The position numbers and the translations under genes were made by a program. 64,000 nt of DNA. Source: Flavonifractor sp. An10 (GTDB lineage: Bacteria > Bacillota > Clostridia > Oscillospirales > Oscillospiraceae). Below are positions 29,858 to 61,763 of the stretch, piece after piece. The notes below the pieces were generated by a model, which saw nothing but the letters and a program-made list of their open reading frames with translations, was not told the DNA's origin and did not search any database. Within the stretch, counting starts at the first letter, position 1; every line of letters starts with the position of its first letter. The stretch covers positions 186,001 to 250,000 of the forward strand of contig NZ_NFMB01000006.1 in the NCBI RefSeq assembly GCF_002161215.1. Direction: 5' to 3'.

Positions 29858-29910
29858 TGGTGCGCCTGAAGGGACTCGAACCCACACGCATCACTGCACG
29901 AGAACCTAAA
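29858..29910 (-). pseudogene. 3' half of a split tRNA-Leu(UAG)
   Basis: The minus strand gives TTTAGGTTCTCG (anticodon loop and 3' anticodon stem), a long variable arm, TTCGAGT (T loop), the acceptor strand CAGGCGC and ACCA. The acceptor pairs perfectly with GCGCCTG of the 5' half at 61725-61763, and CGAGA/TCTCG closes the anticodon stem around TTTAGGT. Joined at the shared 7 bases, the halves make an 85-nt tRNA-Leu. The T stem has a T-T mismatch, a possible sign of decay. Confidence 0.85.
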
Positions 29911-29970
29911 GGTGATGTCACCTTAGTGAAAATATACCGTCAATGGCGCCGAAGCGGTTTAGGTTCAGGT

Positions 29971-30516
29971 TTATCTCTGCCCTCTTCCGATCTCCAGGCC
30001 CTTCTCGAAGGCCTGCTTGTTGAGGGGCAGGAGCTTGGGCTTGGAGGAGAGCTTGTGCTCGATGGTCTGCCAGACGATATCGGGGGCGATGACCTCGGTG
30101 TAGCCCACGTAGACCCCCAGCATGATCACGTTGAGGACCTTGGCGTTGCCCAGCTCCAGGGCCAGCTCGGTGACGGGGGCCTTCACCAGCTTCACGTCGT
30201 CCCGGCCGATGTCGTCGGAGACGATAGAGCTGTTGATGAACAGGGTGCCGCCGCTCTTCAGCTTTCCGATGAACTTGGCCAGGGAGGGGCCGTTCATGAC
30301 GATGAGGTCGTCCATCACGTCCCCCAGGGGGGCGCCGATGGGCTCGTCGGAGATGACCACGTAGCAGTTGGCGGTGCCGCCCCGCTGCTCCGCGCCGTAG
30401 GAGGGGAAGAAGGTGACGTTTTTATCGGTGGAGTTGCAGGTGGCGTCGGCCAGAAACTTACCCAGGGTCATGACGCCCTGGCCGCCGAAGCCGGCCACAC
30501 ACAGGTTGGTTTCCAT
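29971..30516 (-). CDS. 2-oxoacid:ferredoxin oxidoreductase, gamma subunit
   Basis: The 181-aa protein starts METNLCVAGFGGQGVMTLGK, the glycine-rich start of POR/KOR/VOR gamma subunits, and has FFPSYGAEQRGGTANCYVVI and NVIMLGVYVGYTEVI. It forms the complex with the alpha, beta and ferredoxin subunits encoded upstream; together they oxidise a 2-oxoacid to an acyl-CoA and reduce ferredoxin. AAGGAGGAGA precedes the ATG at 30516. It is the last gene of the operon and lies 60 bases inside the island edge. Confidence 0.92.
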   Translation of the reverse strand: METNLCVAGFGGQGVMTLGKFLADATCNSTDKNVTFFPSYGAEQRGGTANCYVVISDEPIGAPLGDVMDDLIVMNGPSLAKFIGKLKSGGTLFINSSIVSDDIGRDDVKLVKAPVTELALELGNAKVLNVIMLGVYVGYTEVIAPDIVWQTIEHKLSSKPKLLPLNKQAFEKGLEIGRGQR

Positions 30517-30529
30517 GTTCTCTCCTCCT

Positions 30530-31267
30530 TTACCGGTCACGGATGACGCCCAGCGGGAACTCGGGCAGCATCTTTTCCTCGATGAAATCCAGGGCGGCTA
30601 GGGCATCCATGCCCCAGTTGGTGGGACAGCTGGTGACGATCTCCACCATGGAGAAGCCCTTGCCGTCCAGCTGGTTCTGGAAGGCCTTGCGGATGGCCTG
30701 CTTGGTCTTGTTCACATTGGCCGGGGTGTTGCAGCTGGTGCGGGCCAGATAGGCCGGCGCGGTGAGCTGGTTGAGGATCTCGCACATGTGCATGGGGTAG
30801 CCGTGCTCCTTGGGATCCCGGCCCATGGGGGCGGTGGAGGCCTTCATGCCCACCAGGGTGGTGGGGGCCATCTGGCCGCCGGTCATGCCGTAGATGCCGT
30901 TGTTGACAAAGATCACCGTGATGTTCTCCCCCCGGTTGGCGGCGGACATGGTCTCCGCCAGGCCGATGGAGGCCAGATCGCCGTCCCCCTGGTAGGTGTA
31001 CACCAGGGTGTCCGGGTTGGCCCGCTTCATGCCGGTGGCCACGGCGGTGGCCCGGCCGTGGGGGGCGGTGGTGTTGTCGTAGGCGATGTAGTCCATGTGC
31101 AGGCCGCAGCAGCCGATGCCCAGCACGCAGGCGGCCTTCTCCACCACGTTCATCTCCTCCAGCACCTCGCCGATGAGCTTGATCACCGTGGAGTGCATGC
31201 AGCCGGGGCAGAAGCCGGAGACCTTGTCCTCCTGGATGGTCTTGGTTCTCGAATAGATCAGTTCCAT
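30530..31267 (-). CDS. 2-oxoacid:ferredoxin oxidoreductase, beta (TPP-binding) subunit
   Basis: The 245-aa protein has FCPGCMHSTVIKLIGEVLEE with the cluster-binding Cys, GIGCCGLHMDY, and the thiamine-diphosphate motif YQGDGDLASIGLAET with VIFVNNGIYGMTGGQM. These fit KOR/VOR beta subunits. It starts 1 base after the alpha gene ends. Sequence alone does not separate branched-chain 2-oxoacids, 2-oxoglutarate and pyruvate as the substrate. Confidence 0.92.
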   Translation of the reverse strand: MELIYSRTKTIQEDKVSGFCPGCMHSTVIKLIGEVLEEMNVVEKAACVLGIGCCGLHMDYIAYDNTTAPHGRATAVATGMKRANPDTLVYTYQGDGDLASIGLAETMSAANRGENITVIFVNNGIYGMTGGQMAPTTLVGMKASTAPMGRDPKEHGYPMHMCEILNQLTAPAYLARTSCNTPANVNKTKQAIRKAFQNQLDGKGFSMVEIVTSCPTNWGMDALAALDFIEEKMLPEFPLGVIRDR

Positions 31268-31268
31268 C

Positions 31269-32351
31269 TTACTTCCCCTCCACGATTTTCTTGGCCGCGG
31301 CCAGCACCTTCTCGCGGCTCATGATGTTGCCGCCGGAGCACAGGCAGGTCTCGATGGGGCAGCGATCCTTCACGCCCACCATCACGTCCTTGACAAACTG
31401 GGCGGGGATGGACATCTCCACATCCAGCACGGCCTTCACCCTGCCGTAGTCGATGTGGTCGTAGGCGGCGTAGGGGAAGGGGTTGACGGTGATGGGGCGG
31501 ATCAGGCCGGCCTTGATGCCCTGGGCCCGGAGAATGTCCACCGCGGATTTGCAGATGCGCCCGGAGATGCCGTAGCCGGTGAGCACCACTTCGGCATCCT
31601 CCAGCCGGTACTCCTCCACCTGCACGTCCTTCTGCCAGGACCGGTAGAGCGCGGCGGCGTCCTCGTTGGCCTTCTGCATGTCCTCGGTGCGCCAGTGGCC
31701 GGGCTCGATCCAGGAGCGGTGGGCGTAGTCCAGCGGGTGGCCCACGCAGGCCCAGCTCTGCTTGGAGGCCTTGATGGCTGCCACCTCCTCGTCGCTCTTC
31801 ATCTCAGGCAGCACCACCGGCTCCATCATGGTGCCGATAACGCCGTCGGCCAGGATGAGGACGGGGTTGCGGTCCCGGTCGGCGTAGTCAAAGGCGGCGT
31901 AGGTCATGTCCACCGCCTCCTGGACGGAGGAGGGGGCAAAGACCAGCATCTGGAAGCCGCCGTTGCCGCTGGCCTTGGTGGCCTGGAGGTAGTCCATCTG
32001 GGCGGGCTGGATGGAGCCCACGCCGGGGCCGCCCCGGGAGATGTTGGCGTACACCATGGGGATGCGGGCGGCGGCGCAGTAGGAGATGCCCTCGCTCTTC
32101 AGGGCGATGCCGGGGCTGGAGGAGGAGGTCATGGAGCGGGTGCCCATGGAGGCCGCGCCGTACACCATGTTGACGGAGGCCACCTCCGACTCGCCCTGGA
32201 CAAAGACGCCGCCCACCTCGGGCATGCGGCGGGAGAAATACTCGGGAATTTCGTTCTGCGGGGTGATGGGGTAGCCGGCGAAGAACCGGCAGCCCGCCCG
32301 CACGGCCGCCTCGGCAATGGCCTCGCAGCCCTTCATGAATACTCTTGCCAT
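31269..32351 (-). CDS. 2-oxoacid:ferredoxin oxidoreductase, alpha subunit (VorB-like)
   Basis: The 360-aa protein has RFFAGYPITPQNEIPEYFSR, QGESEVASVNMVYGAASMGT and SSSSPGIALKSEGISY, the pyrimidine-binding domain of the alpha subunit, and a C-terminal domain with VVLTGYGISGRICKSAVDIL. The match is closest to the VorB class (2-oxoisovalerate or related acids). AAGGGGGTAAG precedes the ATG. It follows the ferredoxin gene by 14 bases. Confidence 0.9.
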   Translation of the reverse strand: MARVFMKGCEAIAEAAVRAGCRFFAGYPITPQNEIPEYFSRRMPEVGGVFVQGESEVASVNMVYGAASMGTRSMTSSSSPGIALKSEGISYCAAARIPMVYANISRGGPGVGSIQPAQMDYLQATKASGNGGFQMLVFAPSSVQEAVDMTYAAFDYADRDRNPVLILADGVIGTMMEPVVLPEMKSDEEVAAIKASKQSWACVGHPLDYAHRSWIEPGHWRTEDMQKANEDAAALYRSWQKDVQVEEYRLEDAEVVLTGYGISGRICKSAVDILRAQGIKAGLIRPITVNPFPYAAYDHIDYGRVKAVLDVEMSIPAQFVKDVMVGVKDRCPIETCLCSGGNIMSREKVLAAAKKIVEGK

Positions 32352-32365
32352 GTTGTCTTACCCCC

Positions 32366-32569
32366 TTATTTGTACACGTTGATCGCGCCGTCCGGGCACA
32401 TGCGGCCGCAGATGGCGCAGCCGATGCAGTCCTCCGGGCGGGCCGGGGTCACATACTCGTACCCCTTGGAGTTGACCTTGGTGCCGATCTCCAGCACGTG
32501 CTTGGGGCAGAATTTCACGCAGTAGCCGCAGCTTTTGCACCGCTCGGCCACAATTTCCACTTTTGCCAT
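32366..32569 (-). CDS. 2-oxoacid oxidoreductase ferredoxin-type delta subunit
   Basis: The 67-aa protein has two 4Fe-4S motifs, CKSCGYCVKFCPK (about residues 11-23) and CIGCAICGRMCPD (about 47-59). It carries electrons from the TPP site to free ferredoxin. The ATG at 32569 follows AAGGAGCC; it starts 4 bases after the P-loop gene. Confidence 0.93.
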   Translation of the reverse strand: MAKVEIVAERCKSCGYCVKFCPKHVLEIGTKVNSKGYEYVTPARPEDCIGCAICGRMCPDGAINVYK

Positions 32570-32573
32570 ATCG

Positions 32574-33281
32574 TCAGGCTCCTTCCTCAAGCGGGCCGCC
32601 GGCGTTGAGCCAGGGCTCGGAAAAATACAAGCGCAGGGGGAACAGCGGGAGATCCACCCGCCCGGCCAGGCTGGGACACAGCTCCTCCGCCGCGCAGGCG
32701 AAGCGGATGGGCCGGTAGGGCTCCACCAGCTCCTTTACCCTCCGGTGGCCCTCCAGGAACTCCTGGGCCGTTGTGCCCGGGCCGGTGTTGGGGTTGCTGA
32801 CCAGGTGGAGCTGGTCCAGGCGGACGTGGGATACCCCCAGGATCTTCCCCAGAGTCTCGTCGATCTGCTCGATGGCCTCCATCCAGGGGCGGTAGGCGTT
32901 GAGCACATAGAGCACCGCCGTGTCCGGCCGGTTGAGCAGGGGTGCGTACCAGCCCACGGCCCGGGCGCCGATGTAGTCCCCGCCCACGTCCAGCACCGTG
33001 CAGGCGTTTGGATCCCGCAGCAGAGGGGACACGCCGCCTGCCTGGGTGGGGGCGTCCATGAATTGCTCCTCAAAGTGGCAGACGACACCGCTCTTTTCAA
33101 ACACCCGGGCCTGATCCCGGGAGCGGAAGAGGGGCTTGGTCATGTCCAGATCAAAGAAGTGGACGGGCTTCTCCTGTTCCGAGGCCAGGCAGAGGGCGAA
33201 GTTGATGGACAGCTCGCTCTTGCCGCTCCCCGCGCCCCCCAGAAATACATAATTTTTCTTGCCCGGTATGGATACGTTCAT
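32574..33281 (-). CDS. P-loop ATPase associated with the 2-oxoacid oxidoreductase operon
   Basis: The 235-aa protein starts MNVSIPGKKNYVFLGGAGSG and has Walker A GGAGSGKS at about residues 15-22, a FFDLDMTKPLF Walker-A'-like segment near 50 and VLDVGGDYIGARAVGWY, where DVGGD replaces a Walker B. It resembles MinD/CooC-like NTPases that mature metal enzymes, but no family is certain. The place between the transporter and the ferredoxin subunit suggests a role in assembly or regulation of the complex. AGGAGGCGG precedes the ATG. Confidence 0.75.
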   Translation of the reverse strand: MNVSIPGKKNYVFLGGAGSGKSELSINFALCLASEQEKPVHFFDLDMTKPLFRSRDQARVFEKSGVVCHFEEQFMDAPTQAGGVSPLLRDPNACTVLDVGGDYIGARAVGWYAPLLNRPDTAVLYVLNAYRPWMEAIEQIDETLGKILGVSHVRLDQLHLVSNPNTGPGTTAQEFLEGHRRVKELVEPYRPIRFACAAEELCPSLAGRVDLPLFPLRLYFSEPWLNAGGPLEEGA

Positions 33282-33296
33282 GGTTTTCCGCCTCCT

Positions 33297-33335
33297 GACA
33301 CGGGGGAAAGGCATTCGCCTCTCCCCCGCGCGTAT
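33297..33335 (-). promoter_or_regulatory. Intercistronic hairpin
   Basis: CACGGGGGAAAGGCATTCGC and CTCTCCCCCGCG form an imperfect stem between the transporter and the P-loop gene. There is no U-run, so it may be a processing or attenuating structure rather than an operon end. Confidence 0.4.
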
Positions 33336-33350
33336 GGTCTATTTCCCGTC

Positions 33351-34622
33351 TTACACGGGGCAGAGCAGGTTGGCCAGGGGGTTATAGAACACCAGGCCAC
33401 AGATCATCAGGACCACCACATTGACAAAGGAGACAATCAGCAGCTGGACGAACACCTTGTTCTGATACTCCTTGGTAAACTCATCCTTCAGCTCACTGCC
33501 CAGGGCACCCATGATCAGGGCGCCGCCGGTGGACATAGGCGAGGTGCCGGCCAGGGCGCCGCCCGCCGCCACGGCGGACATGAGGGCCACCGGGTTGACG
33601 CCGCCCACCTGGGCCGCCAGATCGGCACACATGGGCATCATGGTGGGATAGACCACGCTGAGGGCGGAGCTGACCAGGCTCAGCAGGCCGGCGGACAGGC
33701 CCATCAGCGGTGTGGCGCTGAGGGAGTTCATAACGGAGGCCAGGGCGTCGGTCATCAGGGAGATGCCGCCCATGAGATCCACGATGTTCAGCAGAGCGCC
33801 CACACACAGCACCATGATGATGGTGTTCCAGGGCATGGCCTTGATGCAGACGTTGTCATCGGCCACCCGGAAGAGCAGAAGAATCGCCGCTACGGACAGA
33901 GCCGCCATACCGATATTCACGCCCACGAAGATGATGAGAATCAGCATCAGCAGGATACCGCCCAGGGCCGCCAGCTGCTTGCCGTTGAATTTTTCGGCAA
34001 CCTGCATCGCCACGCCCTCGGGAGCCTTCACCTTGTAGCCTTTGAACATGATGAAGAGAATCACACAGACGATGATGCTGGTGATGGCGGTGATGAGCAT
34101 GATGGCCGGGTTGGCAAAGTGTTCAAAGCCGCTCTCATTCACCGCATTGATAATGATGGCGCCCTCCGGTGTCAGGGGGGAGAACCGGCCGGACAGCATA
34201 CCGGAAATGCCGATCAGGGCCATCATCAGGGGATTATAGCCGGTCTGCCGGGCGATGGACACCGCCAGAGGCGGGATGATGGCCAGCACGGGTACGCCGC
34301 CGGGGCCCACAGCCACCAGGACGAAGCCGGTGATGGGGATCAGGATGGGCAGCAGCCAGATGCGCTTGCCGGCCAGAGCCACGATCTTCCGGGCCAGCAG
34401 ATCCAGTGCGCCGGTGTTGGTGACAATGGAGAACAACAGGGTGATTCCCACCAGAGTGGTGAACAGGGAGACGCTGACACCGGCGATCAGATCATTATCA
34501 GACAGGCCGAATACCCGGACAGCGATAACGCCCAGGGCCATGGCCAGGACACCGATGTTGTTTTTCCGTACGAAAGCCAGGATAATGGCCGCAAAGAAGA
34601 AAACGATAGACAGGATTGCCAT
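33351..34622 (-). CDS. MatC/SLC13-like carboxylate transporter
   Basis: The 423-aa protein has about eleven membrane helices. The N-terminus (ILSIVFFFAAIILAFVRKNN, then IGVLAMALGVIAVR) resembles the MatC dicarboxylate carrier, and the two helical hairpins contain GPGGVPVLAIIPP and GTSPMSTGGALIMGALG, like ion-transporter superfamily members. It is encoded with a CoA-transferase and a lyase, so it probably imports the acid that these genes activate and split. Confidence 0.82.
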   Translation of the reverse strand: MAILSIVFFFAAIILAFVRKNNIGVLAMALGVIAVRVFGLSDNDLIAGVSVSLFTTLVGITLLFSIVTNTGALDLLARKIVALAGKRIWLLPILIPITGFVLVAVGPGGVPVLAIIPPLAVSIARQTGYNPLMMALIGISGMLSGRFSPLTPEGAIIINAVNESGFEHFANPAIMLITAITSIIVCVILFIMFKGYKVKAPEGVAMQVAEKFNGKQLAALGGILLMLILIIFVGVNIGMAALSVAAILLLFRVADDNVCIKAMPWNTIIMVLCVGALLNIVDLMGGISLMTDALASVMNSLSATPLMGLSAGLLSLVSSALSVVYPTMMPMCADLAAQVGGVNPVALMSAVAAGGALAGTSPMSTGGALIMGALGSELKDEFTKEYQNKVFVQLLIVSFVNVVVLMICGLVFYNPLANLLCPV

Positions 34623-34682
34623 AATTGTACCGCCTCTCTTTATACTCGCCCCTCAGCCGAGGAGGCTGTGTTTTGGGTAAAC

Positions 34683-35588
34683 TCAGCTGTGCCTGCACAC
34701 CGCGCCCTGGCAACTGACCACGGCGGCCTGGATCTCGGCCGCCATCTCGGCGGCAGCCTGGTTGGCCAGCTCCAGATTCAGGCCGGTCTCAATTCCCATG
34801 GCGTGCATGAAGTAGATCAGATCCTCGGTGGCTACGTTGCCCTTGGCGCCGGGCACAAAGGGGCAGCCGCCCATGCCGGCCAGGGAGGAGTCGAACAGGG
34901 TGATGCCCTCCAGCAGGCCCACATAGGCGTTGGCGATGGCCATGCCGTAGGTGTCATGGAGGTGGAGGGAGAGCCGGTCTACGTCGGCGCACTCCTTCAC
35001 GGCCCGGATGACCCGCCGGGTGTTCTCCGGGGTGCTCAGGCCGGCGGTGTCCGCCAGGCCGAACTCCTCCACACCCACGCTCTGGGCCTCCCGGATGATC
35101 CAGCGGATGCGCTCCAGGGGCACCTCGTCCCCGAAGGGGGAGCCGAAGATGCAGGGGATGCCCAGCACGATGTGCAGGCCCTGGGCGTGGCTGGCCAGCT
35201 CCTTGAAGGCATCCATGGACTCCTGAATGGTACGCCGGGAGTTGCGCAGGTTGTGCTCCTCGCTGGCGGAGAGGACAAAGTTCACATTGTGAACCCCGGC
35301 GGCCCGGGCATCCTCCACGCCCCGTTTGTTCAGGGCCAGGACAAAGGCGGTGACACCCTTCTGATCCAGGTAGTCCTTCACGCCCTGAAACACCTCTTTG
35401 GCATCCCCCATCTGTGGCACGTACTTGGGGCTCACAAAAGAGGTGATCTCCATCTTACGGGCGCCGTAATCCACCATCTTTTTGATGTACTTGATTTTGA
35501 TGTCGGCGGGAATATGCACTGGGTGGTTCTGCCAGCCGTCTCTGGGGCAGACCTCGGAAACCAAAACCTTTTCAGGCAGCTTGCTCAT
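34683..35588 (-). CDS. HMG-CoA lyase-like enzyme
   Basis: The 301-aa TIM-barrel protein has VCPRDGWQNHP (catalytic Arg-Asp; Trp replaces the usual Leu), KMEITSFVSPKYVPQM, LHLHDTYGMAIAN with the metal-binding HxH, and SSLAGMGGCPFVPGAKGNVA, the HMG-CoA lyase active-site signature with its Cys. It would cleave a 3-hydroxy-3-methyl acyl-CoA to acetyl-CoA plus an oxo product. HMG-CoA or citramalyl-CoA are both plausible. GAGGAGGTTG precedes the ATG. It lies just downstream of the CoA-transferase. Confidence 0.85.
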   Translation of the reverse strand: MSKLPEKVLVSEVCPRDGWQNHPVHIPADIKIKYIKKMVDYGARKMEITSFVSPKYVPQMGDAKEVFQGVKDYLDQKGVTAFVLALNKRGVEDARAAGVHNVNFVLSASEEHNLRNSRRTIQESMDAFKELASHAQGLHIVLGIPCIFGSPFGDEVPLERIRWIIREAQSVGVEEFGLADTAGLSTPENTRRVIRAVKECADVDRLSLHLHDTYGMAIANAYVGLLEGITLFDSSLAGMGGCPFVPGAKGNVATEDLIYFMHAMGIETGLNLELANQAAAEMAAEIQAAVVSCQGAVCRHS

Positions 35589-35600
35589 GATACAACCTCC

Positions 35601-36818
35601 TCAATTCATGGCGCCGATCTCGCGATAGTGAGCCAGCTGTTCGTCGGTGAAACCCAGCGCCTTGAAGATGTCCTCGTTGTCCTCGCCCAGGTCGGGGGCG
35701 GCCTTGTAATACTGGCAGGGGGTTTCCTCCATCTTGATGGGGTTGCCCAGGACCGTCAACTCGGCGGGAGCCTCGGGATGATTTTTGGGCGCGGGCACCT
35801 TTACCAGCATCTCCCGTACCTCCACGATGTTTTTGTCCTTGCACACCCGCTCGCAGTTGTAGATGGGGCCCACGGGGATGCCGGCCTTGTCGATGATTTC
35901 CACCACCTCATCCACCGTCTTGTCGGAGGCCCATTGGTTAATGATCGCCTTCAGCTCGTCTGCGTTTTTCTTGCGGCTCTCGGTATCGATGTACTTGGGA
36001 TCCTGGGCCAGCTCCGGCATGCCCATGGCGGCGGACAGGTTTTGGAAATGCTTATCTGTGCCGGAGGCGATGACGAAGTAGTCATCCTTGGCCTTGAAAG
36101 AGTCGTAGGGGGCGCTGGAGATATACTTGTTGCCCGTAGGCACGGGAGAGACCCCCTCATAGAGGTACTGCATCATTTTGGCCTCCATGCCGGAGACGAT
36201 GGAGTCCACCAGGGCCACGTCGATGTGGTTGCCCTTGCCGGTTTCATTGCGCTTATAGAGGGAGGCACAGATGGCAAAGCTCGCATTCAGGGCTGCGAAC
36301 ATGTCACCGATAGCCATGCCGGCCCGGGTAGGCTCAGAGCCGGGCCAGCCGGTAATGCTCATGGAGCCGCCCATGGCCTGGGCGATCAGGTCATAGCCGG
36401 GCCGGTGGGAGTTGGGGCCGTACTGGCCGAATCCAGAGATGGAGGCGTAGACCAGACGGGGGTTGAGTTCCCTGCACTCCTCCCAGCCGAAGCCCAGCCG
36501 CTTCATAACGCCGGGGCGGTTGTTCTCGATGAGCACATCGGCGGACTTGATCAGCTCGGCAAAGAGCCTCTTGCCCTCTTCCTGCTTCAGATCCAGGGCC
36601 ACACCCCGCTTGTTGCGGTTCAGATTCTGAAAGTACATGCTCAGGCCGGAATTCTTTTCCTTGGGCCGGGCGTTTCGAACGAAGTTGCCGCCGCTGCGCA
36701 GGTTCTCAAACTTGATCACGTCGGCCCCCATGTCGGCGAAATACATGCCCACATACGGCCCCGCCAGGAAGTCGGTGAAGTCAATTACCCGGACACCTTT
36801 CAACAGTTGCTCACTCAT
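35601..36818 (-). CDS. CaiB/BaiF (family III) CoA-transferase
   Basis: The 405-aa protein starts MSEQLLKGVRVIDFTDFLAG and has the family III pattern GPYVGMYFADMGADVIKFEN, NRNKRGVALDLKQEEG, and NPRLVYASISGFGQYGP; the catalytic Asp is in DLIAQAMGGSMSITG (about residue 168). It moves CoA from a donor acyl-CoA to a carboxylic acid. It is the first gene after the sigma-54 promoter, followed by the lyase, transporter and oxidoreductase genes. The ATG at 36827 is an alternative start. Confidence 0.9.
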   Translation of the reverse strand: MSEQLLKGVRVIDFTDFLAGPYVGMYFADMGADVIKFENLRSGGNFVRNARPKEKNSGLSMYFQNLNRNKRGVALDLKQEEGKRLFAELIKSADVLIENNRPGVMKRLGFGWEECRELNPRLVYASISGFGQYGPNSHRPGYDLIAQAMGGSMSITGWPGSEPTRAGMAIGDMFAALNASFAICASLYKRNETGKGNHIDVALVDSIVSGMEAKMMQYLYEGVSPVPTGNKYISSAPYDSFKAKDDYFVIASGTDKHFQNLSAAMGMPELAQDPKYIDTESRKKNADELKAIINQWASDKTVDEVVEIIDKAGIPVGPIYNCERVCKDKNIVEVREMLVKVPAPKNHPEAPAELTVLGNPIKMEETPCQYYKAAPDLGEDNEDIFKALGFTDEQLAHYREIGAMN

Positions 36819-36872
36819 ACAATTCATCCTGCCTTTCTTTTTTGAGGTGGAATCGCTTTCGTCCCTGCTCTT

Positions 36873-36891
36873 AACGCAAGGGGCGTGCCAA
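36873..36891 (-). promoter_or_regulatory. Sigma-54 promoter of the CoA-transferase operon
   Basis: The minus strand reads TTGGCACGCCCCTTGCGTT, which matches the -24/-12 consensus TGGCAC-N5-TTGC at both elements. It lies 55 bases before the CoA-transferase start. The sigma-54 activator at 39138-41054 is the obvious candidate regulator. Confidence 0.85.
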
Positions 36892-36897
36892 GTCTTT

Positions 36898-36921
36898 AAA
36901 CCCTTGCAATGGCAGGGGTTT
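36898..36921 (-). promoter_or_regulatory. Inverted repeat next to the sigma-54 promoter
   Basis: AAACCCTTGC and GCAGGGGTTT form a 10-bp stem around AATG, immediately upstream of the -24 element. It could be a regulator site or the end of another transcript. Confidence 0.45.
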
Positions 36922-36964
36922 TGTGGATTGCTTCTTTTTCGGAGAGCCGGAAAATGTTTTATTT

Positions 36965-36984
36965 AGTTTACGTTAGTTAACGCT
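36965..36984 (-). promoter_or_regulatory. Putative upstream activator sites
   Basis: AGTTTACGTT and AGTTAACGCT are adjacent 10-bp direct repeats about 75-95 bases upstream of the sigma-54 promoter, the place expected for an enhancer bound by a PrpR-type activator. Confidence 0.5.
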
Positions 36985-36998
36985 ATTTGTTGGAGCGC

Positions 36999-37042
36999 AA
37001 AAAAACTGGACCCGCCCCGGTTGGGGGCGGATCCAGTTTTTT
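36999..37042 (-). terminator. Terminator of the TetR-MFS operon
   Basis: AAAAAACTGGACCCGCCCC pairs with GGGGCGGATCCAGTTTTTT. On the minus strand, it lies 7 bases beyond the MFS stop and ends in a U-run. Confidence 0.85.
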
Positions 37043-37048
37043 GGTGGA

Positions 37049-54588: not shown

Positions 54589-54660
54589 AGGTTTTGGATG
54601 GGGTGAGGACATAGATGAAGAAATGCAATCTGTGGCCACGCACTGACAAAACCGGGGGTT

Positions 54661-54730
54661 TCCAAAGGGGGCTTATGCCCCCTTTGGCACACGACCTTGC
54701 TTGCAAGGTGTAGTGTGTTATACCTGCTGG
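54661..54730 (+). promoter_or_regulatory. oriT of pMV158/MobV type
   Basis: ACCTTGC-TT-GCAAGGT (54694-54709) is followed by GTAGTGTGTTATACC (54710-54724). This is the layout of the pMV158 MobM origin, where the nick lies in TAGTG/TGTTATAC. GGTGTA and TATACC also form the second inverted repeat. A further palindrome (CCAAAGGGGGC-TTAT-GCCCCCTTTGG) lies directly upstream. The matching relaxase is the MobV protein at 59979-60935. Confidence 0.8.
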
Positions 54731-55100
54731 CGCGGCTGACAGGGTAAACGGGGTGCGATGCGGTTTGCGCCCCGCTTACACTGGCAGGAAAACGGGCAGG
54801 ATTTTTGTGAGCGGACGGGAACAAAAATCCCGTTCGTTTTCAGAGAGCACCAGCAGGTATACAAACCTCCGTCCCTCGTCCTCCGTCCCCTACTGATGGG
54901 ACAAAATGTCCCAAAGATGCGATTACCGTTATCCCTAGATTTAAAAGGGAGGGCAAGCACACTTGGAGCTTGCCCTCCTTGATTACCCATAAAGCAAGAC
55001 CGGGCAGTGCTGTCAACGGCGCCGCATGAAATGCACCGTTCATCTTGACCGTTGATGCCCCTAGATGGGGTTGCTACTTGCAAGAGAGTGACAAACCTCT
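54731..55100. other. Highly structured non-coding spacer
   Basis: No gene is seen. Several hairpins are present: GGATTTTTGT with ACAAAAATCC (54800-54831), GGGACAAAATGTCCC (54898-54912), and AAGGGAGGGCAAGC with GCTTGCCCTCCTT (54945-54980), the last one terminator-like. The spacer may extend the oriT/single-strand origin region of the element. Confidence 0.6.
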
Positions 55101-56099
55101 TTAAAACGGCCATTCGGAAAAATCTTCTTCCTCGTCAGCAGTTTCATTCTCAATTCCAAGTAGGAGTTTTGCTCGCATTAATAGTTGGTCATAAGTTATG
55201 ATATGCAATTGATGATATGCGGCATTTAAGATTCGCAAGGCCTTTAATTCATTATCATCCCAGTCAACTGATCGACCGTACACCAACATACATTGAGGTT
55301 TGACGGTTTTTGTATCCTCTACCCGTTCCATGAACTCCACGGAATTAGACTGAAGCTCTATTTTATATAAATAGTTCAAGCATTGGGTTATCGCAGCAGT
55401 AAGCTGGGAAGAAGGGCATAAATTTCCATGTGAATCTGGCCTTGTCCAAAATGGTAGATCAGGACGCTTTATTTCTACAACATCAAGAAAACCATCGATA
55501 GCTCTCATTAAATAATCTGCAATATCTGTGACATCAATATCTCGTTCTGGCAATATATTCAGATATTCGGACCCAAGCACCCATTTATTTCGGCTGAACC
55601 AATCTTGCCAATATGATTCAGGATAGCCGCTACTGATAGCTTGCTCAAATTCACTGACTGCACGATTTCTTTCTGCTGCCGTAATAGCAACGCTCAGGTT
55701 CTCGGTAAGTATCCCAGATTCATGAAGCTTTTTCACAACTTCTGCATCGGGAATTCCCAAGTCACGAACTTTAGCAAACAACTCGGCAGCATCCTTGTCT
55801 ACCGAAATAAACTCGGACATTCCCGTGTTTAAGGGCGCATAATACTCTTGAATATACTCAATTAGTTTATCTATCTCTCCACAGGAAAGCGTAATTGATT
55901 TGTCTTGCTTTTCATAAAATGTTCCATTGACTTTCCTATATCGAGCAATTTTCAATGAGACTATTTTTTCGCCAGTCGTTTGATGGGTGTTTCTAAAGAA
56001 AACTGCTCTTGACGAACTGCGCAAACCAGTTTTTAACTCACACGGCTCAACATACTCTTGGCCTTTAGATGTAAGCTTAACATTCTTCCATTCTTTCAT
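55101..56099 (-). CDS. Shedu-type (DUF4263) nuclease
   Basis: The 332-aa protein has a C-terminal PD-(D/E)xK-like domain: IADYLMRAIDGFLDVVEIKR with the E-x-K pair near residue 213, and SSQLTAAITQCLNYLYKIEL, the following helix with its conserved Gln, as in the Shedu antiphage protein SduA. The N-terminal 150 residues are a separate, unrecognised region, which in Shedu proteins varies with the trigger. TTAGGAGAAG precedes the ATG. It lies at the end of the restriction-modification operon. Confidence 0.82.
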   Translation of the reverse strand: MKEWKNVKLTSKGQEYVEPCELKTGLRSSSRAVFFRNTHQTTGEKIVSLKIARYRKVNGTFYEKQDKSITLSCGEIDKLIEYIQEYYAPLNTGMSEFISVDKDAAELFAKVRDLGIPDAEVVKKLHESGILTENLSVAITAAERNRAVSEFEQAISSGYPESYWQDWFSRNKWVLGSEYLNILPERDIDVTDIADYLMRAIDGFLDVVEIKRPDLPFWTRPDSHGNLCPSSQLTAAITQCLNYLYKIELQSNSVEFMERVEDTKTVKPQCMLVYGRSVDWDDNELKALRILNAAYHQLHIITYDQLLMRAKLLLGIENETADEEEDFSEWPF

Positions 56100-56138
56100 A
56101 AGCTTCTCCTAAAAGGGATGAAAATGTAGAAAACCCAC

Positions 56139-57050
56139 TTATTCCATCCCATATAGAGACCTGCGAATAGCATCCCGGTAAACATTGCCTTCTGGTAGAT
56201 TCATGGAAGAAAAGGCTTCTTGGACTTTGTAAACCGTTGTGCAGTGTTCCTCCAAGATACCAAGAGGAGTAATCGTTCCTTCACCAGTTGTTTCCAGATA
56301 GTCATAGGCAAGAAAATGGATAGAAGCTGGTTGTGTTGGAAAGCGTGGAATGCGTTCTTTTCCTCCCAGTCGGTTGAGAACTCGATCGTATACAGCTTTG
56401 GGACACACAAAGAACAAGCCTGTTCTACACAAATCCTCTCGCTGCAAAACCTGCCCTTTATAAATCAATTGTGGGATAATACGCTTAGAAACATTTTCCC
56501 AGTTCAATCCGACAGTGTCTGCAACGATGTCTCGGTTTTCCATAAGTGAATTGCGGGCTTCACGGTAGTTTCCTGTGGTATCAATAGTTTGGACTTCGAT
56601 AGCTGTAAATTCAACAAGCTCTCCGGCTCCATCCAAGCGTGCCAACACCCAATCAACAAAGTAGGAGCCTGTCCCGGCCCTTTGGGGCAGTCGTAACTCT
56701 CCGCCCCATCCATGCCCAAAAACAGCAATAGCTCCATTTTCCGCTTTGGCTTTTTCTACTGCTGCTCTCCCAGAGTAAAGCCCTAACTCACAGCCAAATG
56801 CCTGCTGCGCGACTAAGTGGAGCATCTTGTAATCTTCGGCATAAATCCGATTTGGACAACAGATGACATCCGGAGACCCTGGTGTTTTCTGTCGAACTGC
56901 ACAGACTCCAGAAATAATTCTATCCCGCGACAAAACTTTTGTGCATTGAGTTCCGAGAAAAGGACAAACCTGACGAGCTGCTGCTGTTGCAGCTTGTGAG
57001 GATTTATCTTCTGCACGATAACCGAAAAACTCTGAAATATATCCGGCCAT
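56139..57050 (-). CDS. NotI-like type II restriction endonuclease
   Basis: The 303-aa protein has AARQVCPFLGTQCTKVLSRD and ISGVCAVRQKTPGSPDVICC, which resemble the cysteine-rich iron-binding part of NotI. The nuclease core is seen in FTAIEVQTIDTTGNYREA (E-x-Q in place of E-x-K, as in NotI-type PD-(D/E)xK enzymes) preceded by FVDWVLARL. It begins 1 base after the C5-methyltransferase gene, the usual pairing of a type II system. The recognition site is unknown; a GC-rich site would be expected from the NotI family. Confidence 0.78.
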   Translation of the reverse strand: MAGYISEFFGYRAEDKSSQAATAAARQVCPFLGTQCTKVLSRDRIISGVCAVRQKTPGSPDVICCPNRIYAEDYKMLHLVAQQAFGCELGLYSGRAAVEKAKAENGAIAVFGHGWGGELRLPQRAGTGSYFVDWVLARLDGAGELVEFTAIEVQTIDTTGNYREARNSLMENRDIVADTVGLNWENVSKRIIPQLIYKGQVLQREDLCRTGLFFVCPKAVYDRVLNRLGGKERIPRFPTQPASIHFLAYDYLETTGEGTITPLGILEEHCTTVYKVQEAFSSMNLPEGNVYRDAIRRSLYGME

Positions 57051-57051
57051 T

Positions 57052-58242
57052 TTAAGACCCCTCCTCTAAAATGGATTTGAGTGCAAGACCAACAGCTTCT
57101 GCCAGCAAAGGAGGTACGGCGTTTCCTACCTGAGCGAACTGCTGTCCTTGCGTGCCAGTAAAGATAAAGTGATCTGGAAAGGATTGTAGGCGGGCGGCCT
57201 CTCTAACAGTAAAAGAGCGATCTTGATTGTAATGGAAATAAGCGCCCCAATGAGGATCGCATTTAGTTAAAATAGTCGAAGCCAAACCATCAGGAGTAAC
57301 ACGGCCATATCGCTTGGTGTGATCAGATTTTCTGGCCCTTTTCATACCTTTTGGCAAAAGCTCATCAGGTATATCTGTCCAATTCCCACCAGGCTTAATG
57401 TATTTCAATCTCTCTTGATTTTCTTTAGAAAGCCGGGGAGCTTCATGATTATATATTCCACAACTACCGATACGCGCTCGTTTCTGATAATCACACATTG
57501 GCTCACATATATATTCTTTTACTTCAGCACCTCTTTCCCCACACTTCAATGGCGGAAGATCGCCAATAGCTTCCTGCACTGTGGTGAATTTAGCAGATGC
57601 TTCAGGCGAAGGGAGCTTTACGAGTAACTGGCCGTCAAATGTAGTGGTAAAATTGGGCTTCACTGGCGCATGGTAGAGCGGCTCCGGGAATGCCAAAGAA
57701 GGAAGGTTTTTCCCCCTCAAGCCAAGAATGATGGTTCTCCACCTCATTTGGGGGACACCATAATATGCAGCACCAAGGATACGCACATCAGCGCCATACC
57801 CCAGTTCTGCCAAAGCATTGAGAATGGCGTGCAGAGTGGCACCATGTTCAAAAGAAACAAGTCCGGGAACATTCTCAATCAAAATTGCCCTTGGAGCAAA
57901 AGCATCTACAAAGCGCAAATATTCTTTGAACAAATGATTTCTTTGGTCAAGTACACTTCTGACTGGAGCATTGATTGAAAATCCCTGACACGGAGGACCG
58001 CCAGCAAGTAAATCTAACTCTCCACGCTCAATACCAAGTTCTTCTCGAATTTGATTTGCGTCTATACTACGAATATCTGCTGTTAAGACCCTAGCGGAAG
58101 GGTGGTTTTTCTGATATGTTGCAGCATAAACAGGCATGATTTCTGAAGCGAATAGACTGTGAAATCCAGCCTCAGAAAGTCCCTCAGACAATCCACCTGC
58201 ACCCGCAAATAAGTCAATCATTGTCAAATTATTGTTTGTCAT
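57052..58242 (-). CDS. DNA (cytosine-5)-methyltransferase
   Basis: The 396-aa enzyme methylates cytosine at C5. Motif I is MIDLFAGAGGLSEGL, motif IV holds the catalytic Cys in GGPPCQGFSIN (near residue 85), motif VI is AILIENVPGL, motif VIII is YGVPQMRWRTI, and motifs IX-X are RFTVREAARLQSFPDH-like and AQVGNAVPPLLAEAVG. The target recognition domain (about 190-310) is moderate in size. The ATG at 58242 is preferred; it overlaps the upstream HTH gene by 14 bases. It protects host DNA from the NotI-like enzyme. Confidence 0.95.
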   Translation of the reverse strand: MTNNNLTMIDLFAGAGGLSEGLSEAGFHSLFASEIMPVYAATYQKNHPSARVLTADIRSIDANQIREELGIERGELDLLAGGPPCQGFSINAPVRSVLDQRNHLFKEYLRFVDAFAPRAILIENVPGLVSFEHGATLHAILNALAELGYGADVRILGAAYYGVPQMRWRTIILGLRGKNLPSLAFPEPLYHAPVKPNFTTTFDGQLLVKLPSPEASAKFTTVQEAIGDLPPLKCGERGAEVKEYICEPMCDYQKRARIGSCGIYNHEAPRLSKENQERLKYIKPGGNWTDIPDELLPKGMKRARKSDHTKRYGRVTPDGLASTILTKCDPHWGAYFHYNQDRSFTVREAARLQSFPDHFIFTGTQGQQFAQVGNAVPPLLAEAVGLALKSILEEGS

Positions 58243-58432
58243 CTTTTGTCCTCGCTCTTGTATTGCTATCTTTAGTCGGCTTTTCTGCATTTTCTGGGAT
58301 GATCCAAATCCGACTCATACGCGCCGCACCGGCAATTCGGTTTTCTTTGCACAAAATTTGGACTTGCCGGGGAGTCACGCCCCATTTTTCAGCGGCTTCC
58401 TGTACCGTCATATATCCGTTCACTTGTGACAC
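58229..58432 (-). CDS. Small helix-turn-helix protein (possible R-M controller)
   Basis: The 67-aa protein has a MerR/excisionase-like helix-turn-helix (MTVQEAAEKWGVTPRQVQIL) and RIWIIPENAEKP, followed by a basic tail. It is the first gene of the methyltransferase/restriction operon and could set the timing of restriction or act in excision. The GTG start at 58432 is uncertain; GTG at 58423 or ATG at 58411 are alternatives. Confidence 0.7.
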   Translation of the reverse strand: MSQVNGYMTVQEAAEKWGVTPRQVQILCKENRIAGAARMSRIWIIPENAEKPTKDSNTRARTKDDKQ

Positions 58433-58625
58433 CTCAAAGTTTGTCTCATGGGGTAATATTAAACCATTATTAGTATATTCGTTTAAGCGAAATTAGGCAA
58501 GAGCTTTTTAAGCAACTGCCCGTATATACGCCAAAAATGTTTTTGAATTTTAGGAACAAAAAGTATATACTTATGTCGTATTATAATAGATAACATATTT
58601 TAAAGCATAAAAGGAGGTCAGCCCT
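58433..58625. promoter_or_regulatory. Divergent promoter region
   Basis: This AT-rich spacer separates the R-M operon from the sigma-like gene. On the minus strand TATACT lies near 58475; on the plus strand TTATAAT lies near 58579-58585, and AAGTATATACTT (about 58561-58572) is a palindrome next to it. AAGGAGGTC precedes the plus-strand start. Confidence 0.55.
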
Positions 58626-59489
58626 ATGGACGAACCACATCCGCATATGCAAGTAACTTTTCCCTTTGACAGCAACATCCGCTATCTGCCTCTTGTCTAT
58701 CTTATCCCAGCAGACCAGATCGTCAGGTATCCTACGCTGAATGCACTGCCACGGTGTCTTTCTGAAATAGCGGCATCCGAACCGATGATGGACTTGCTCG
58801 ACAGCGACGCTTTCTTGAAGGACATCATGGACGCCATAGCTGCTTTGGCCTTTCCGCACTTTGGCTTTGGCGGGTGGAAAGAACACTACACTGGCTACTG
58901 TCCAGTTTGGCGGCTCTCCTATGCGCTACCACTTTGGGCCAGCTTAATAGATCAGGAATGTGGTTGGGGATTGCAGCTTTTATTTCGCATGAAGCCTGGA
59001 ACACAAATTCCGTTCCCAGACGCCGATCAGGTAAGAGAATTATTTGCCCATGTGGTGAAGCGTGCGATTACGGAGCAGGGGTGGCAACCAATTTTGGACA
59101 TCGTGCGAGAAATACCCTGCGATGAAGATTTTGAAAAATGGGATACCAACGCTCGCAAAGACTTTCTCCGCAGGTGGTATCACACCCGCTCCAAGAAAGT
59201 ACAGACCGTTTCACTGGAAGGAATGCTGGAAAACAGTGATGACGACAGTCCTATTTTCCATATTCCAGATCCAAGCCAAAATGTAGAGGAATATGTGATC
59301 GCTAAGGACTTTGTGGAACGGTTTTTAAAGACCTTGCCCCTGAAAGATCGGCAGATTGTTGAACTGAGACAGGATGGATTTACTTACGAGGAAATTGCGG
59401 ACAAGCTGGGGTATAAAAACCACAGCGGAGTTATCAAACGAGTGGAGGCGGTAAAAAAGAAACTTCAAAAGTACAGATGCAGCGTATGA
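58626..59489 (+). CDS. Sigma-70-like protein of the mobile element
   Basis: The 287-aa protein ends in a sigma region-4 helix-turn-helix (LPLKDRQIVELRQDGFTYEE, IADKLGYKNHSGVIKRV). The first 200 residues do not match sigma region 2 and are unrecognised. Proteins of this type occur in gut Firmicute integrative elements and may direct polymerase to element genes. GGAGGTCAG precedes the ATG. Confidence 0.75.
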   Translation: MDEPHPHMQVTFPFDSNIRYLPLVYLIPADQIVRYPTLNALPRCLSEIAASEPMMDLLDSDAFLKDIMDAIAALAFPHFGFGGWKEHYTGYCPVWRLSYALPLWASLIDQECGWGLQLLFRMKPGTQIPFPDADQVRELFAHVVKRAITEQGWQPILDIVREIPCDEDFEKWDTNARKDFLRRWYHTRSKKVQTVSLEGMLENSDDDSPIFHIPDPSQNVEEYVIAKDFVERFLKTLPLKDRQIVELRQDGFTYEEIADKLGYKNHSGVIKRVEAVKKKLQKYRCSV

Positions 59490-59490
59490 A

Positions 59491-59527
59491 AGCCACGCAG
59501 ACCAGAAGGTTGTGCGTGGCTTTTTTG
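59491..59527 (+). terminator. Terminator after the sigma-like gene
   Basis: AGCCACGCA pairs with TGCGTGGCT, followed by TTTTTT. A second hairpin with a U-run (CGCCACC near 59640 and GGTTTGGCG near 59663, then TTTTTTT) lies downstream, before the next promoter. Confidence 0.85.
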
Positions 59528-59756
59528 CGCTCAAGCCGGATGAAAAGAGGTGAAAATTCCCCCGAATTTTTGAAGGATCGCCGTTCAATGAACGATTGAC
59601 TGTTTTTGTGTCGGTTATTTTCTGGAGAGCGCGCCACCGTGAAGCGAACGGAGTTCATGGTTTGGCGGGCTTTTTTTCATTTCCGGCAAATCCCACACAA
59701 AACAGCGAAACCGAATATTGCTCTTTACGGGGCAGACATAGAAAGGAGAGAGAACA

Positions 59757-59969
59757 ATGGGCATTCGAGAAGAAATCAAGTCCTATATCGTCCGTTCTGG
59801 CATGACCATGACAGAGGTAGTGGATAGGCTGTACGACGATTACGATTGGAGCCGCAGCGTTCCCAATCTATCCGGCAAATTGCGTCGGGGTTCCCTGCGA
59901 TACCAAGAAGCCGTGGAGCTTGCGGATGTGCTGGACTATGACATTGTCTGGGTCAAGCGTAAGCGGTAA
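59757..59969 (+). CDS. DUF6471-like small DNA-binding protein
   Basis: The 70-aa protein starts MGIREEIKSYIVRSGMTMTE and has VPNLSGKLRRGSLRYQEAVE with LADVLDYDIVWV, the pattern of a DUF6471/HTH-like element protein. AAAGGAGAGAG precedes the ATG. It lies 9 bases before the MobV relaxase gene and may bind near oriT or regulate mobilisation. Confidence 0.65.
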   Translation: MGIREEIKSYIVRSGMTMTEVVDRLYDDYDWSRSVPNLSGKLRRGSLRYQEAVELADVLDYDIVWVKRKR

Positions 59970-59978
59970 GGAGGTACA

Positions 59979-60935
59979 ATGGCACAAAAAGCACAGCACG
60001 CAATTTTACGCTTTGCCAAACACAAGGCGGGGCCGGCAGGGGCATTGGAAGCCCACCACGAGCGTACAAAGGAAAAGTACGCCAGCAATCCCGATATTGA
60101 CATCAGTAAAAGCAAGGACAATTTTCACATTATTCAGCCTACGCAGAAGTACCGAAAGGAAATTGACACTCGCATCAAGGCGGCGGGGTGCCGTACCAGG
60201 AAGGACAGCACTATGTTTGTGGACACGCTGATTACCGCCAGCCCGGAGTTCTTCACAGGCCGAAGCAAGAAAGAAGTACAAGCCTACTTCACCGAAGCGG
60301 TAGCTTTTATGGAGAAGAAGGTGGGCCGGGGGAACATTTTTTCCGCTGTGGTACACATGGATGAAAAAACACCTCATCTTCACCTGTGCTTTACCCCCAT
60401 CACAGAGGACGGGCGGCTGTCTGCAAAGGAGATTTTGGGCAACCGGGCGCAGCTTTCAAAATGGCAGGACGAGTTTCACGCCCACATGAAAAAGGTGTTC
60501 CCCGTCCTCAAGCGGGGCGAGAGCGCCCTTGTCACCAAGCGCAAGCACATTCCCACATGGTTGTTCAAGCAGTCCGTAGACCTCACCCGGCAACAGCAGG
60601 CCATAGAAAAGGCGGTGTCGGAAATCGGGGTGCTGAACGCCGGGAAAAAACGAGACGAAATTTTGGAGATGGTGGGGCCATATTTCTCCCGGCTGGAAAA
60701 GCATTTGGGACAGATGAAGAAATACCAAGCCACCATCGACTATCTGACGCAGGAGAACGAGGGCTTGAAGGAAAAGGTCAACAGCGAAAAGAGCATACAG
60801 AAGCAGATGGAGGTGTTGACACTGAAAAAGGATAACGAGCGGCTGCGGCGGTTTGTGGACAGTATTCCCCCTGAGGTGCGTCGGATACTCAGAGAGCAGC
60901 AGCGCCAGCAGCGACCCAAAGATCACGATCTGTAA
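59979..60935 (+). CDS. mobV: MobV (Pre/Mob) family relaxase
   Basis: The 318-aa protein starts AQKAQHAILRFAKHKAGPAG and has the MobV signature AVVHMDEKTPHLHLCFTPIT (H-x-D-E-x-x-P-H-x-H, about residues 125-135), with a coiled coil at the C-terminus (about 225-300). This class nicks pMV158-type origins, and such an origin is present at 54661-54730. AAGGAGGTAC precedes the ATG. It would let a conjugative helper mobilise the defence-carrying element. Confidence 0.92.
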   Translation: MAQKAQHAILRFAKHKAGPAGALEAHHERTKEKYASNPDIDISKSKDNFHIIQPTQKYRKEIDTRIKAAGCRTRKDSTMFVDTLITASPEFFTGRSKKEVQAYFTEAVAFMEKKVGRGNIFSAVVHMDEKTPHLHLCFTPITEDGRLSAKEILGNRAQLSKWQDEFHAHMKKVFPVLKRGESALVTKRKHIPTWLFKQSVDLTRQQQAIEKAVSEIGVLNAGKKRDEILEMVGPYFSRLEKHLGQMKKYQATIDYLTQENEGLKEKVNSEKSIQKQMEVLTLKKDNERLRRFVDSIPPEVRRILREQQRQQRPKDHDL

Positions 60936-60963
60936 ACCATCTTTGAGAAAAACGGAGGTACAT

Positions 60964-61143
60964 TTGGGTAGAAGAAAAAAGCTGATCAACAACACCGATA
61001 TTCCCCAGCACCAGATCGAAGCAATAGCCTGCTGCATCCTGCCGGACATTCTGGCCTTCTATGAGAGCGAGGAAGGGCAGCGGGAGTTTTCTGAATGGAA
61101 GAAGCAGAGAGAAATAGAGAAGCAAGAGGCAAAAACAGAATAA
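60964..61143 (+). CDS. Small hypothetical protein at the end of the MobV element
   Basis: The 59-aa protein starts (TTG) GRRKKLINNTDIPQHQIEAI and has ACCILPDILAFYESEEGQRE. ACGGAGGTAC precedes the TTG at 60964. A decayed copy lies at 48455-48600, so this is a fixed part of the element family. Function is unknown. Confidence 0.65.
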   Translation: MGRRKKLINNTDIPQHQIEAIACCILPDILAFYESEEGQREFSEWKKQREIEKQEAKTE

Positions 61144-61152: not shown

Positions 61153-61195
61153 AAAAGCGGGGTGTCATCCGAAAAGGGTGGCACCCCGCTTTTTT
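61153..61195 (+). terminator. Terminator at the end of the MobV operon
   Basis: AAAAGCGGGGTG pairs with CACCCCGCTTTT and is followed by TTT. The 61196-61291 stretch beyond it shows no recognisable gene. Confidence 0.88.
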
Positions 61196-61291
61196 GCGTT
61201 TATATAGATTTCTTCTTTTTCCGTGGCCCTCTTGGCTTGGAAGTCGGTTTGCGCTTCACCCCGTTGCGAAAATAGGCGGTTTCGTAACGGT

Positions 61292-61352
61292 CAAAGAAAA
61301 CAAATAATCCGAACCCATCTCCTATCGGAAACAAGTTCGGATTATATTGGTT
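61292..61352 (-). terminator. Terminator of the intact tRNA-Leu (repeat copy 2a)
   Basis: On the minus strand, AATCCGAAC and GTTCGGATT form a stem after the tRNA CCA, followed by TTTGTTTTCTTTG. The segment with the CCA end is repeated at 49299-49362. Confidence 0.8.
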
Positions 61353-61438
61353 TGGTGCGGGCGGCGGGACTCGAACCCGCACACCACTAAGGTAATGGAA
61401 CCTAAATCCATCGAGTCTGCCAATTCCACCACGCCCGC
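61353..61438 (-). tRNA. tRNA-Leu (anticodon UAG)
   Basis: The minus strand folds as an 86-nt class-II tRNA with encoded CCA. The acceptor is GCGGGCG/CGCCCGC, the D arm has GTGGAATTGGCAGAC, the anticodon stem ATGGA/TCCAT encloses the loop TTTAGGT (anticodon UAG), the variable arm is long, and the T arm is GCGGG-TTCGAGT-CCCGC. It lies 287 bases inside the right edge of the island and has the same anticodon as the tRNA that the island splits. Confidence 0.95.
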
Positions 61439-61538
61439 AGATATGAGCGGCAGGGAACCCTGTCGCTATTTTGCTGCCCTCTGTTTTCACACGGGGAGGG
61501 ACTACCCGAGGCGGAGCAATATGCTTGACCCGCGTGTA

Positions 61539-61567
61539 TAAAAACAGGCGTGGAGCCTGTTTTTATT
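61539..61567. terminator. Bidirectional terminator near the island edge
   Basis: AAAAACAGGC-GTGGA-GCCTGTTTTT has U-runs on both strands. It lies between the intact tRNA-Leu and the 5' half of the split tRNA. The remainder of 61568-61708 shows no gene. Confidence 0.75.
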
Positions 61568-61724
61568 AAAATAATAGTGTAGTGTGTGCAAAATTCTGGG
61601 ACTGACTTTGTCAGTCTGCGATTTCAACGCACAGAGTGCGATGAAATTATGATTTTTTATCCATGAGTGGCAATTGGGGATGGTCAGAATATCCGCTTAA
61701 ATAATCCGTCACTGAGGTGACAGC

Positions 61725-61763
61725 ACCTAAATCTCGCATGTCTACCAATTCCATCACAGGCGC
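61725..61763 (-). pseudogene. 5' half of a split tRNA-Leu(UAG)
   Basis: The minus strand reads GCGCCTG (acceptor), TG, a D arm with ATGGAATTGGTAGACAT, then GCGAGA and TTTAGGT (anticodon stem and loop). Instead of the matching TCTCG it continues GCTGTCACC into the island. The missing 3' half is at 29858-29910. Confidence 0.85.

Follow-up and report, generated by a model that had tools for sequence, protein, structure and literature searches.

We analysed a window of 64,000 nucleotides from the genome of Flavonifractor sp. An10 (positions 186,001 to 250,000 of contig NZ_NFMB01000006.1; genome G000 below, 3.88 Mb, 99.95 % complete), in which the tRNA-Leu(UAG) gene of the host is split by a spacer of 31,814 bp. 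On the sequence evidence, the spacer is very probably an integrative element that was inserted by a pair of large serine recombinases, here called A and B, and that replaced the whole tRNA gene it interrupted with another one. The element is probably also mobilizable. Elements related to it appear to have acted on this site repeatedly in many bacteria of the gut.

Both halves of the split gene are on the reverse strand. The 5′ half, at attL, occupies 61725–61763 and ends in the sequence TTTAGGT (61725–61731), and the 3′ half, at attR, occupies 29858–29910 and begins with the same sequence (29904–29910), as had been reported in a preliminary description of this DNA. Joining the two flanks in silico gave a tRNA-Leu(tag) in ARAGORN, and either flank alone gave no tRNA. 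In a BLAST comparison with 60 relatives, an intact gene 98 % identical was found in a genome of the same genus (G001). The gene is split at the identical base in three further genomes, G015, G016 and G018, each with its own halves, those of G015 on two different contigs. Separate halves were recovered by BLAST in G015, G003 (3′ half), G009 and G013 (5′ half). The last of these has an intact gene 99 % identical as well as a separate 5′ half, and because that half stops exactly at a contig end G013 may also carry an element. Misassembly or chance was considered as the source of the break and was rejected because the same break recurs across independent genomes.

The preliminary description had proposed a single insertion bounded by the two halves and expected that, in relatives without it, an intact gene would join pdxK directly to the region on the other side. 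For pdxK, which is divergent from the tRNA locus in the window (61871–62740, forward strand), this was borne out: a pdxK 71–77 % identical adjoins an intact tRNA-Leu(UAG) in all five empty relatives (G001, G002, G004, G006 and G010). On the other side, described earlier as carrying a DUF3592-like gene and a miniature inverted-repeat transposable element (MITE), synteny was weak. Within the 9–15 kb fetched from the empty relatives, only ORF 19179–20729 was matched, in one of the five (55 % identity to a gene beside the tRNA in G010); it lies about 9 kb from the 3′ half, and those 9 kb had no counterpart in the same five stretches. The single insertion is nevertheless supported by ends that match as one attP, by a core in common with G016 and G018, and by the position of pdxK beside the intact tRNA.

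The insertion had also been described as leaving the gene broken, which holds for the gene in place and fails overall, as the element supplies a whole replacement tRNA. The single tRNA that ARAGORN found in the window is an intact tRNA-Leu(UAG) at 61353–61438 (reverse strand), oriented like the broken gene and 286 bp inside the left (5′) junction; it had been overlooked, together with the inverted arms at the core and the serine recombinase pair and relaxase inside the element. This copy is the only tRNA-Leu(UAG) found in the genome, where all 11 of the 51 tRNA matches longer than 80 nt, the size of a tRNA-Leu, were identified and the other tRNA-Leu found were CAA, TAA, CAG, CAG and GAG. The gene has therefore been replaced and not lost. 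In standard decoding CUA is read only by tRNA-Leu(UAG), and the host uses CUA codons, with ten in 12 window genes. An exact pattern for the intact gene was matched once in 17 of 20 genomes of the genus, with no match in G011, G014 and G019. A slightly looser pattern was matched once in eight of ten further genomes of the family that bear the left end described below; the two without a match, G159 and G210, have that left end about 100 bp from a contig end. The replacement tRNA of the window matches the one borne by the element of G212, a genome of another genus, at 100 % identity, the G001 gene at 70 % and the host’s own tRNA-Leu(CAG) at 80 %. It is predicted to be expressed and functional.

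At both ends of the element the core directly abuts inverted arms. The left-end arm (LE, GCTGTCACCTCAGTG..., 61705–61724, reverse strand) is conserved across elements, and the right-end arm (RE, TTCACTAAGGTGACATCACC, 29911–29930, reverse strand) is its inverted counterpart. The joined attP, 42 bp long, is a near-perfect palindrome centred on TT, as expected for a serine integrase. Around the central TT, 18 of 20 arm positions are paired in G000 and G016. G018 has two left ends, of which the outer one likewise gives 18 of 20 and the inner one 17 of 20; in all of these cases none of 5000 shuffles gave a dyad as good. The tRNA attB is far less symmetric, with a best value of 8 of 20. Ends complementary in this way are what one circular element would be expected to give. 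Both junctions run from the core into an LE or RE arm, with no tRNA half such as a fragment-restoring attP would carry.

Recombinases A (428 aa, 47167–48453) and B (597 aa, 45423–47216) are adjacent on the forward strand. Both contain Resolvase, Recombinase and zinc-ribbon domains, both retain a YxRxS motif (YTRLS in A, YYRLS in B), and for both the best match among solved structures was TnpX; the NCBIfam models CcrA, CcrB and XisF matched them far below their cut-offs. Pfam scans of 26 chosen ORFs of the 31.8 kb and two more found four serine recombinases and no tyrosine integrase. Upstream of the pair, also on the forward strand, are genes for a MobA/VirD2-type relaxase (PF03432, 43977–45218), a NikA/MobC-like mobilisation protein (43601–43918) and an AAA_25 ATPase (42345–43379). 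All of these form a core shared with two elements that are complete on single contigs, those of G016 (18.8 kb) and G018 (~26 kb), in which A is 66–72 % and B 77–93 % identical across the three. A DUF6076 protein (41113–42222, reverse strand) is shared more weakly, at 32 % similarity, and much else differs. Matching attL and attR, a palindromic attP, a recombinase pair inside, and a relaxase and NikA/MobC of its own would together place the element among the integrative and mobilizable elements (IMEs).

The recombinases are linked to the ends in other genomes as well. In G015, recombinase B, the relaxase, the ATPase and part of A are encoded on the contig that bears the RE, and in G072, G212 and locus L084 the recombinases adjoin the LE and point towards it. 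Among 200 genomes of the family, recombinase B was found at E≤1e-100 in four (G000, G018, G072 and G212), all of them LE-positive. By a hand calculation that ignores relatedness, the chance that four carriers would all fall within the 13 LE genomes is about 1 in 90,000 draws. These associations suggest that A and B perform the reaction. In plasmid records the recombinase pair had a single match, which covered 24 % of the query at 72.5 % identity, and in phage records it had four, at 28–29 % identity.

The distribution of the left end was determined by a scan for the exact LE pattern in one genome for each of 84,980 species. It returned 50 stretches, of which 47 abut a tRNA-Leu(UAG) 5′ half; the other three (L085, L106 and L132, from Porticoccaceae and Idiomarina) have the pattern without a tRNA half and were dropped. 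The half in L096, with AGAT for AGAC, was assigned by eye, which turned a script count of 46 into the totals used here. An intact tRNA-Leu(UAG) comes next in 37 of the 47, from 54 to 1,672 bp past the innermost LE, and in the remaining ten the contig ends within 349 bp of it. Stacks of 5′ halves were present in 16 of the 47 (15 with two halves and one, L129, with four) and are read as successive replacements. Some broken 5′ halves in L066, L068 and L070 have TTTCGGT in place of TTTAGGT, possibly from decay after insertion. The record titles name Flavonifractor, Pseudoflavonifractor, Oscillibacter, Intestinimonas, Anaerofilum, Gemmiger and Angelakisella, together with many uncultured Oscillospiraceae and Clostridia and one bin labelled Lachnospiraceae.

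Searches of the individual genomes are not independent of the species scan because the two sets overlap (L097 is G018, L092 is G015, L107 is G016, L087 is G107, L088 is G113 and L111 is G072). With up to three mismatches, the LE pattern was matched in six of the 20 genomes of the genus, as LEs in G000, G009, G015, G016 and G018 and through the right end in G003. At this setting the backward pattern gave eight matches against 11 for the real one; ten of the 11 are the LEs and REs described here, and the other is on contig C179 of G015. In the family, at two mismatches, the backward pattern gave two matches against 20, and the LE pattern was found in 13 genomes, 12 of which show a 5′ half, a degenerate one in G135. 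The RE pattern was found at ten places in nine of the 200 genomes, abutting a clear tRNA-Leu 3′ half at eight places and a degenerate one at two.

In the mechanism we propose, the serine recombinase pair would insert the element at the anticodon loop of the host’s single tRNA-Leu(UAG) gene by crossover within TTTAGGT, probably at the TT. The host gene would be destroyed on insertion, and the element would bring a complete tRNA-Leu(UAG) in the same orientation, 54 to ~1,700 bp inside the left end and often with a conserved leader. The cell would thus retain one functional tRNA-Leu(UAG), now element-borne. As the anticodon loop is the same, the replacement would itself be a fresh target, and insertion of later elements into it would produce stacks of 5′ halves. 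Stacks may lose their 3′ halves when an inner left end recombines with an outer right end (inner attL with outer attR) and material is excised. A tRNA would then be rebuilt from the 5′ half of the inner site and the 3′ half of the outer one, perhaps with a single LE left as a scar.

The last of these steps has the strongest competitor. Stacks may instead represent nested insertions that are still present downstream, with 3′ halves that are further off or decayed; this would likewise give LEs in tandem, and the search for 3′ halves covered limited stretches. We consider it a possible but less probable account than excision scars. Of three genomes with two LEs each, G018 has just one 3′ half in the 80 kb examined, and none could be recognised in ~39 kb of G072 or ~24 kb of G107. 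A different choice of integrase is unlikely. The low-GC half of the spacer contains two other serine recombinases (50826–51788 and 51834–53360), both with serine-recombinase domains, and if one of these were the integrase, A and B would belong to a nested element. Close relatives of A and B, and not of the low-GC recombinases, are however what the complete elements of G016 and G018 contain, and the same is true of the RE contig of G015 and of the DNA beside the LE in G072, G212 and L084.

Two further explanations were weighed. With the inner tRNA just 286 bp from the junction, the host could have had two tandem tRNA-Leu(UAG) genes, of which the element disrupted the outer one and left a chromosomal inner copy. 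This is very improbable given that empty relatives have one copy at the locus, that every one of the 37 scanned loci with both a 5′ half and an intact gene has an LE separating the two, and that the window copy matches the element-borne copy of G212 completely and the G001 gene so much less closely. Least credible of all is trans-splicing of the two halves, as occurs in some archaea. The acceptor and anticodon stems do pair once the halves are joined; against this, the spacers of G016, G018 and G000 differ in length and gene content, recombinase-type arms flank the break, an intact tRNA is present, and 5′ halves accumulate without matching 3′ halves. A group I intron was rejected along with trans-splicing, with a spacer of 18.8 to 31.8 kb whose gene content differs among relatives.

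Several observations weigh against integration by A and B with whole-tRNA replacement. The two additional serine recombinases of the low-GC half are one. Recombinase B at E≤1e-100 was missing from nine of the 13 LE-pattern genomes of the family, with at most six candidates scored per genome; what these nine contain may be remnants, cassettes that were mobilised in trans, or elements that use different recombinases. Eight of the 13 lacked an RE-pattern match, and one of the 13, G173, really has a degenerate RE. Neither the joined attP nor the LE had a match in viral contigs. Lastly, 34 of 36 scored replacement tRNAs differ from the replaced gene in the first 39 nt, so the equivalence of the two in the cell is only assumed. 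As a separate observation, a cassette of 6.4 kb in G168 (C1:1053060–1059455, equivalent to 7060–13455 of L146) has both ends and a replacement tRNA, with no recombinase seen among the ORFs listed; those of its genes that were scanned resemble a van-type set of response regulator, kinase, ligase, VanY-type peptidase and racemase.

A candidate leader RNA (61474–61558, reverse strand) is located upstream of the replacement tRNA. After filtering, 31 of 57 spacers were retained and one near-duplicate was removed, giving an alignment of 30 sequences and 87 columns; narrower leader-motif filters kept only six and 11 of the 57. RNAalifold predicted a three-way junction, to which covariation contributes little (−0.31 of −7.68 kcal/mol). 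In this structure 94.8 % of cells pair, compared with 49–66 % in slid controls, and 11 cells are changed on both sides compared with a shuffled mean of 4.0; support for the rest of the structure is weak because ten of the 11 fall in one helix. The window leader folds better than shuffles (z −3.8), but its fold of lowest energy, a terminator-like hairpin, is incompatible with the outer stem of the consensus. Rfam had no family for the leader: its matches above the gathering score were tRNAs, with five others below. The derived model, R1, was found at 12 places in 11 of the 200 family genomes, and at all 12 ARAGORN placed a tRNA-Leu(UAG) downstream, 6 to 36 nt away at ten of them and ~400 nt away at a partial match (L182). 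In L184, R1 is ~1.2 kb before the tRNA-Leu(UAG), with a broken 5′ half coming first. The leader thus precedes tRNA-Leu(UAG) in several genera of the family, and since it does so also in three genomes without an LE-pattern match (G137, G193 and G237), it seems to be a leader of tRNA-Leu(UAG) and to travel with the elements.

Two promoter-like sites were found on the reverse strand, compared with a shuffled mean of 0.7. TTGACA-17-TACACT (61779–61807) is upstream of the broken 5′ half, and TTGCCA-16-CATAAT (61646–61673) is inside the element, between the LE and the replacement tRNA. The remainder of the element consists of cargo. A block at 29971–41054 (reverse strand) encodes metabolic functions, namely 2-oxoacid:ferredoxin oxidoreductase subunits, a CitMHS-type transporter, an HMGL-like protein, a class III CoA-transferase, a major facilitator superfamily (MFS) transporter and a PrpR-type sigma-54 regulator. 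The earlier suggestion that this operon was acquired is supported, as cargo, by a comparison that covered the CoA-transferase, for which no match in the other 19 genomes of the genus exceeded 45 % identity. The segment at 48692–61049 has a GC content of ~46 %, compared with ~62 % at 30–48 kb. Besides its two serine recombinases it encodes a MobV relaxase, a sigma factor-like protein and a defence cluster of the Shedu protein SduA, a NotI-like restriction enzyme with a C5 methylase and an FRG-domain protein, and it may constitute a second mobile unit within the element. Downstream of the replacement tRNA, a segment of 118 nt (61247–61364) has an 83 % identical repeat at 49254–49371, on the opposite edge of the low-GC part; the DNA behind the host tRNA-Leu(CAG) and, more weakly, tRNA-Leu(CAA) is similar to it. 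Immediately outside the 3′ half, a MITE-like sequence at 29521–29686 is flanked by inverted copies of TAGGGCTTGTTTGAAA and has an 82 % copy elsewhere in G006.

Two neighbouring serine recombinases are also found in the staphylococcal cassette chromosome (SCC). The resemblance of A and B to CcrA and CcrB is distant, at 75–87 bits against cut-offs of 700 (CcrA) and 900 (CcrB). SCC elements form composite insertions at one site and insert at the end of rlmH, unlike the present element with its insertion in tRNA-Leu(UAG). As of 2015, only tyrosine integrases were known to target tRNA genes (PMC4383910). The Islander islands of that study likewise insert in tRNA genes, with the anticodon loop among their crossover sublocations and tandem islands known, but they use tyrosine integrases and an attP fragment restores the gene, whereas here serine recombinases and a whole, different tRNA gene are involved. 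Serine IMEs are described as disrupting dispensable genes (PMC5704250), and serine integrases as occurring in triplets with 2–8 bp repeats and also as single recombinases (PMC4701971). The present element resembles these IMEs and integrative and conjugative elements of Firmicutes (PMC5704250, PMC4701971) in its Resolvase, Recombinase and (in most of them) zinc-ribbon domains, its short direct repeat of 7 bp and its disrupted target, and resembles serine IMEs in carrying mobilisation genes (PMC5704250); it differs in the single-copy tRNA target, the recombinase pair and the supply of a replacement gene. IME_Rho_tet (PMC12904643) is another serine-recombinase IME with a relaxase and mobC, common in Oscillospiraceae and Lachnospiraceae. 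It differs in that one recombinase is described and, of 256 insertions mapped, 116 lie in small MAFF2-like ORFs; no mention of tRNA was counted in its text. A literature search, which left out most subscription papers and all bioRxiv preprints, turned up neither serine-recombinase elements in tRNA genes nor the replacement of a whole tRNA. Earlier cases may exist, because PMC12884075 tabulates attB sites in tRNA genes, apparently without a split by integrase type.

The element runs counter to two generalities on tRNA-borne islands: the exclusive use of tRNA genes by tyrosine integrases, and restoration of the target through an attP fragment. The serine recombinase pair can be tested on the 42-bp attP and the anticodon-loop attB, its target gene is present in most bacteria, and the leader is a candidate new leader RNA for tRNA-Leu(UAG). 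A probably essential, single-copy RNA gene has apparently been exchanged for a different allele, and at L129 this would have happened as many as four times, with the remains of each swap kept in order. On balance we favour addiction together with landing-site renewal as the reason that the element persists: because its arrival would destroy the sole reader of CUA and supply its own copy, loss other than by precise excision would be lethal. It would follow from this reading, held with the same reserve, that the sole tRNA-Leu(UAG) of some Oscillospirales is now a mobile gene that has been exchanged several times.

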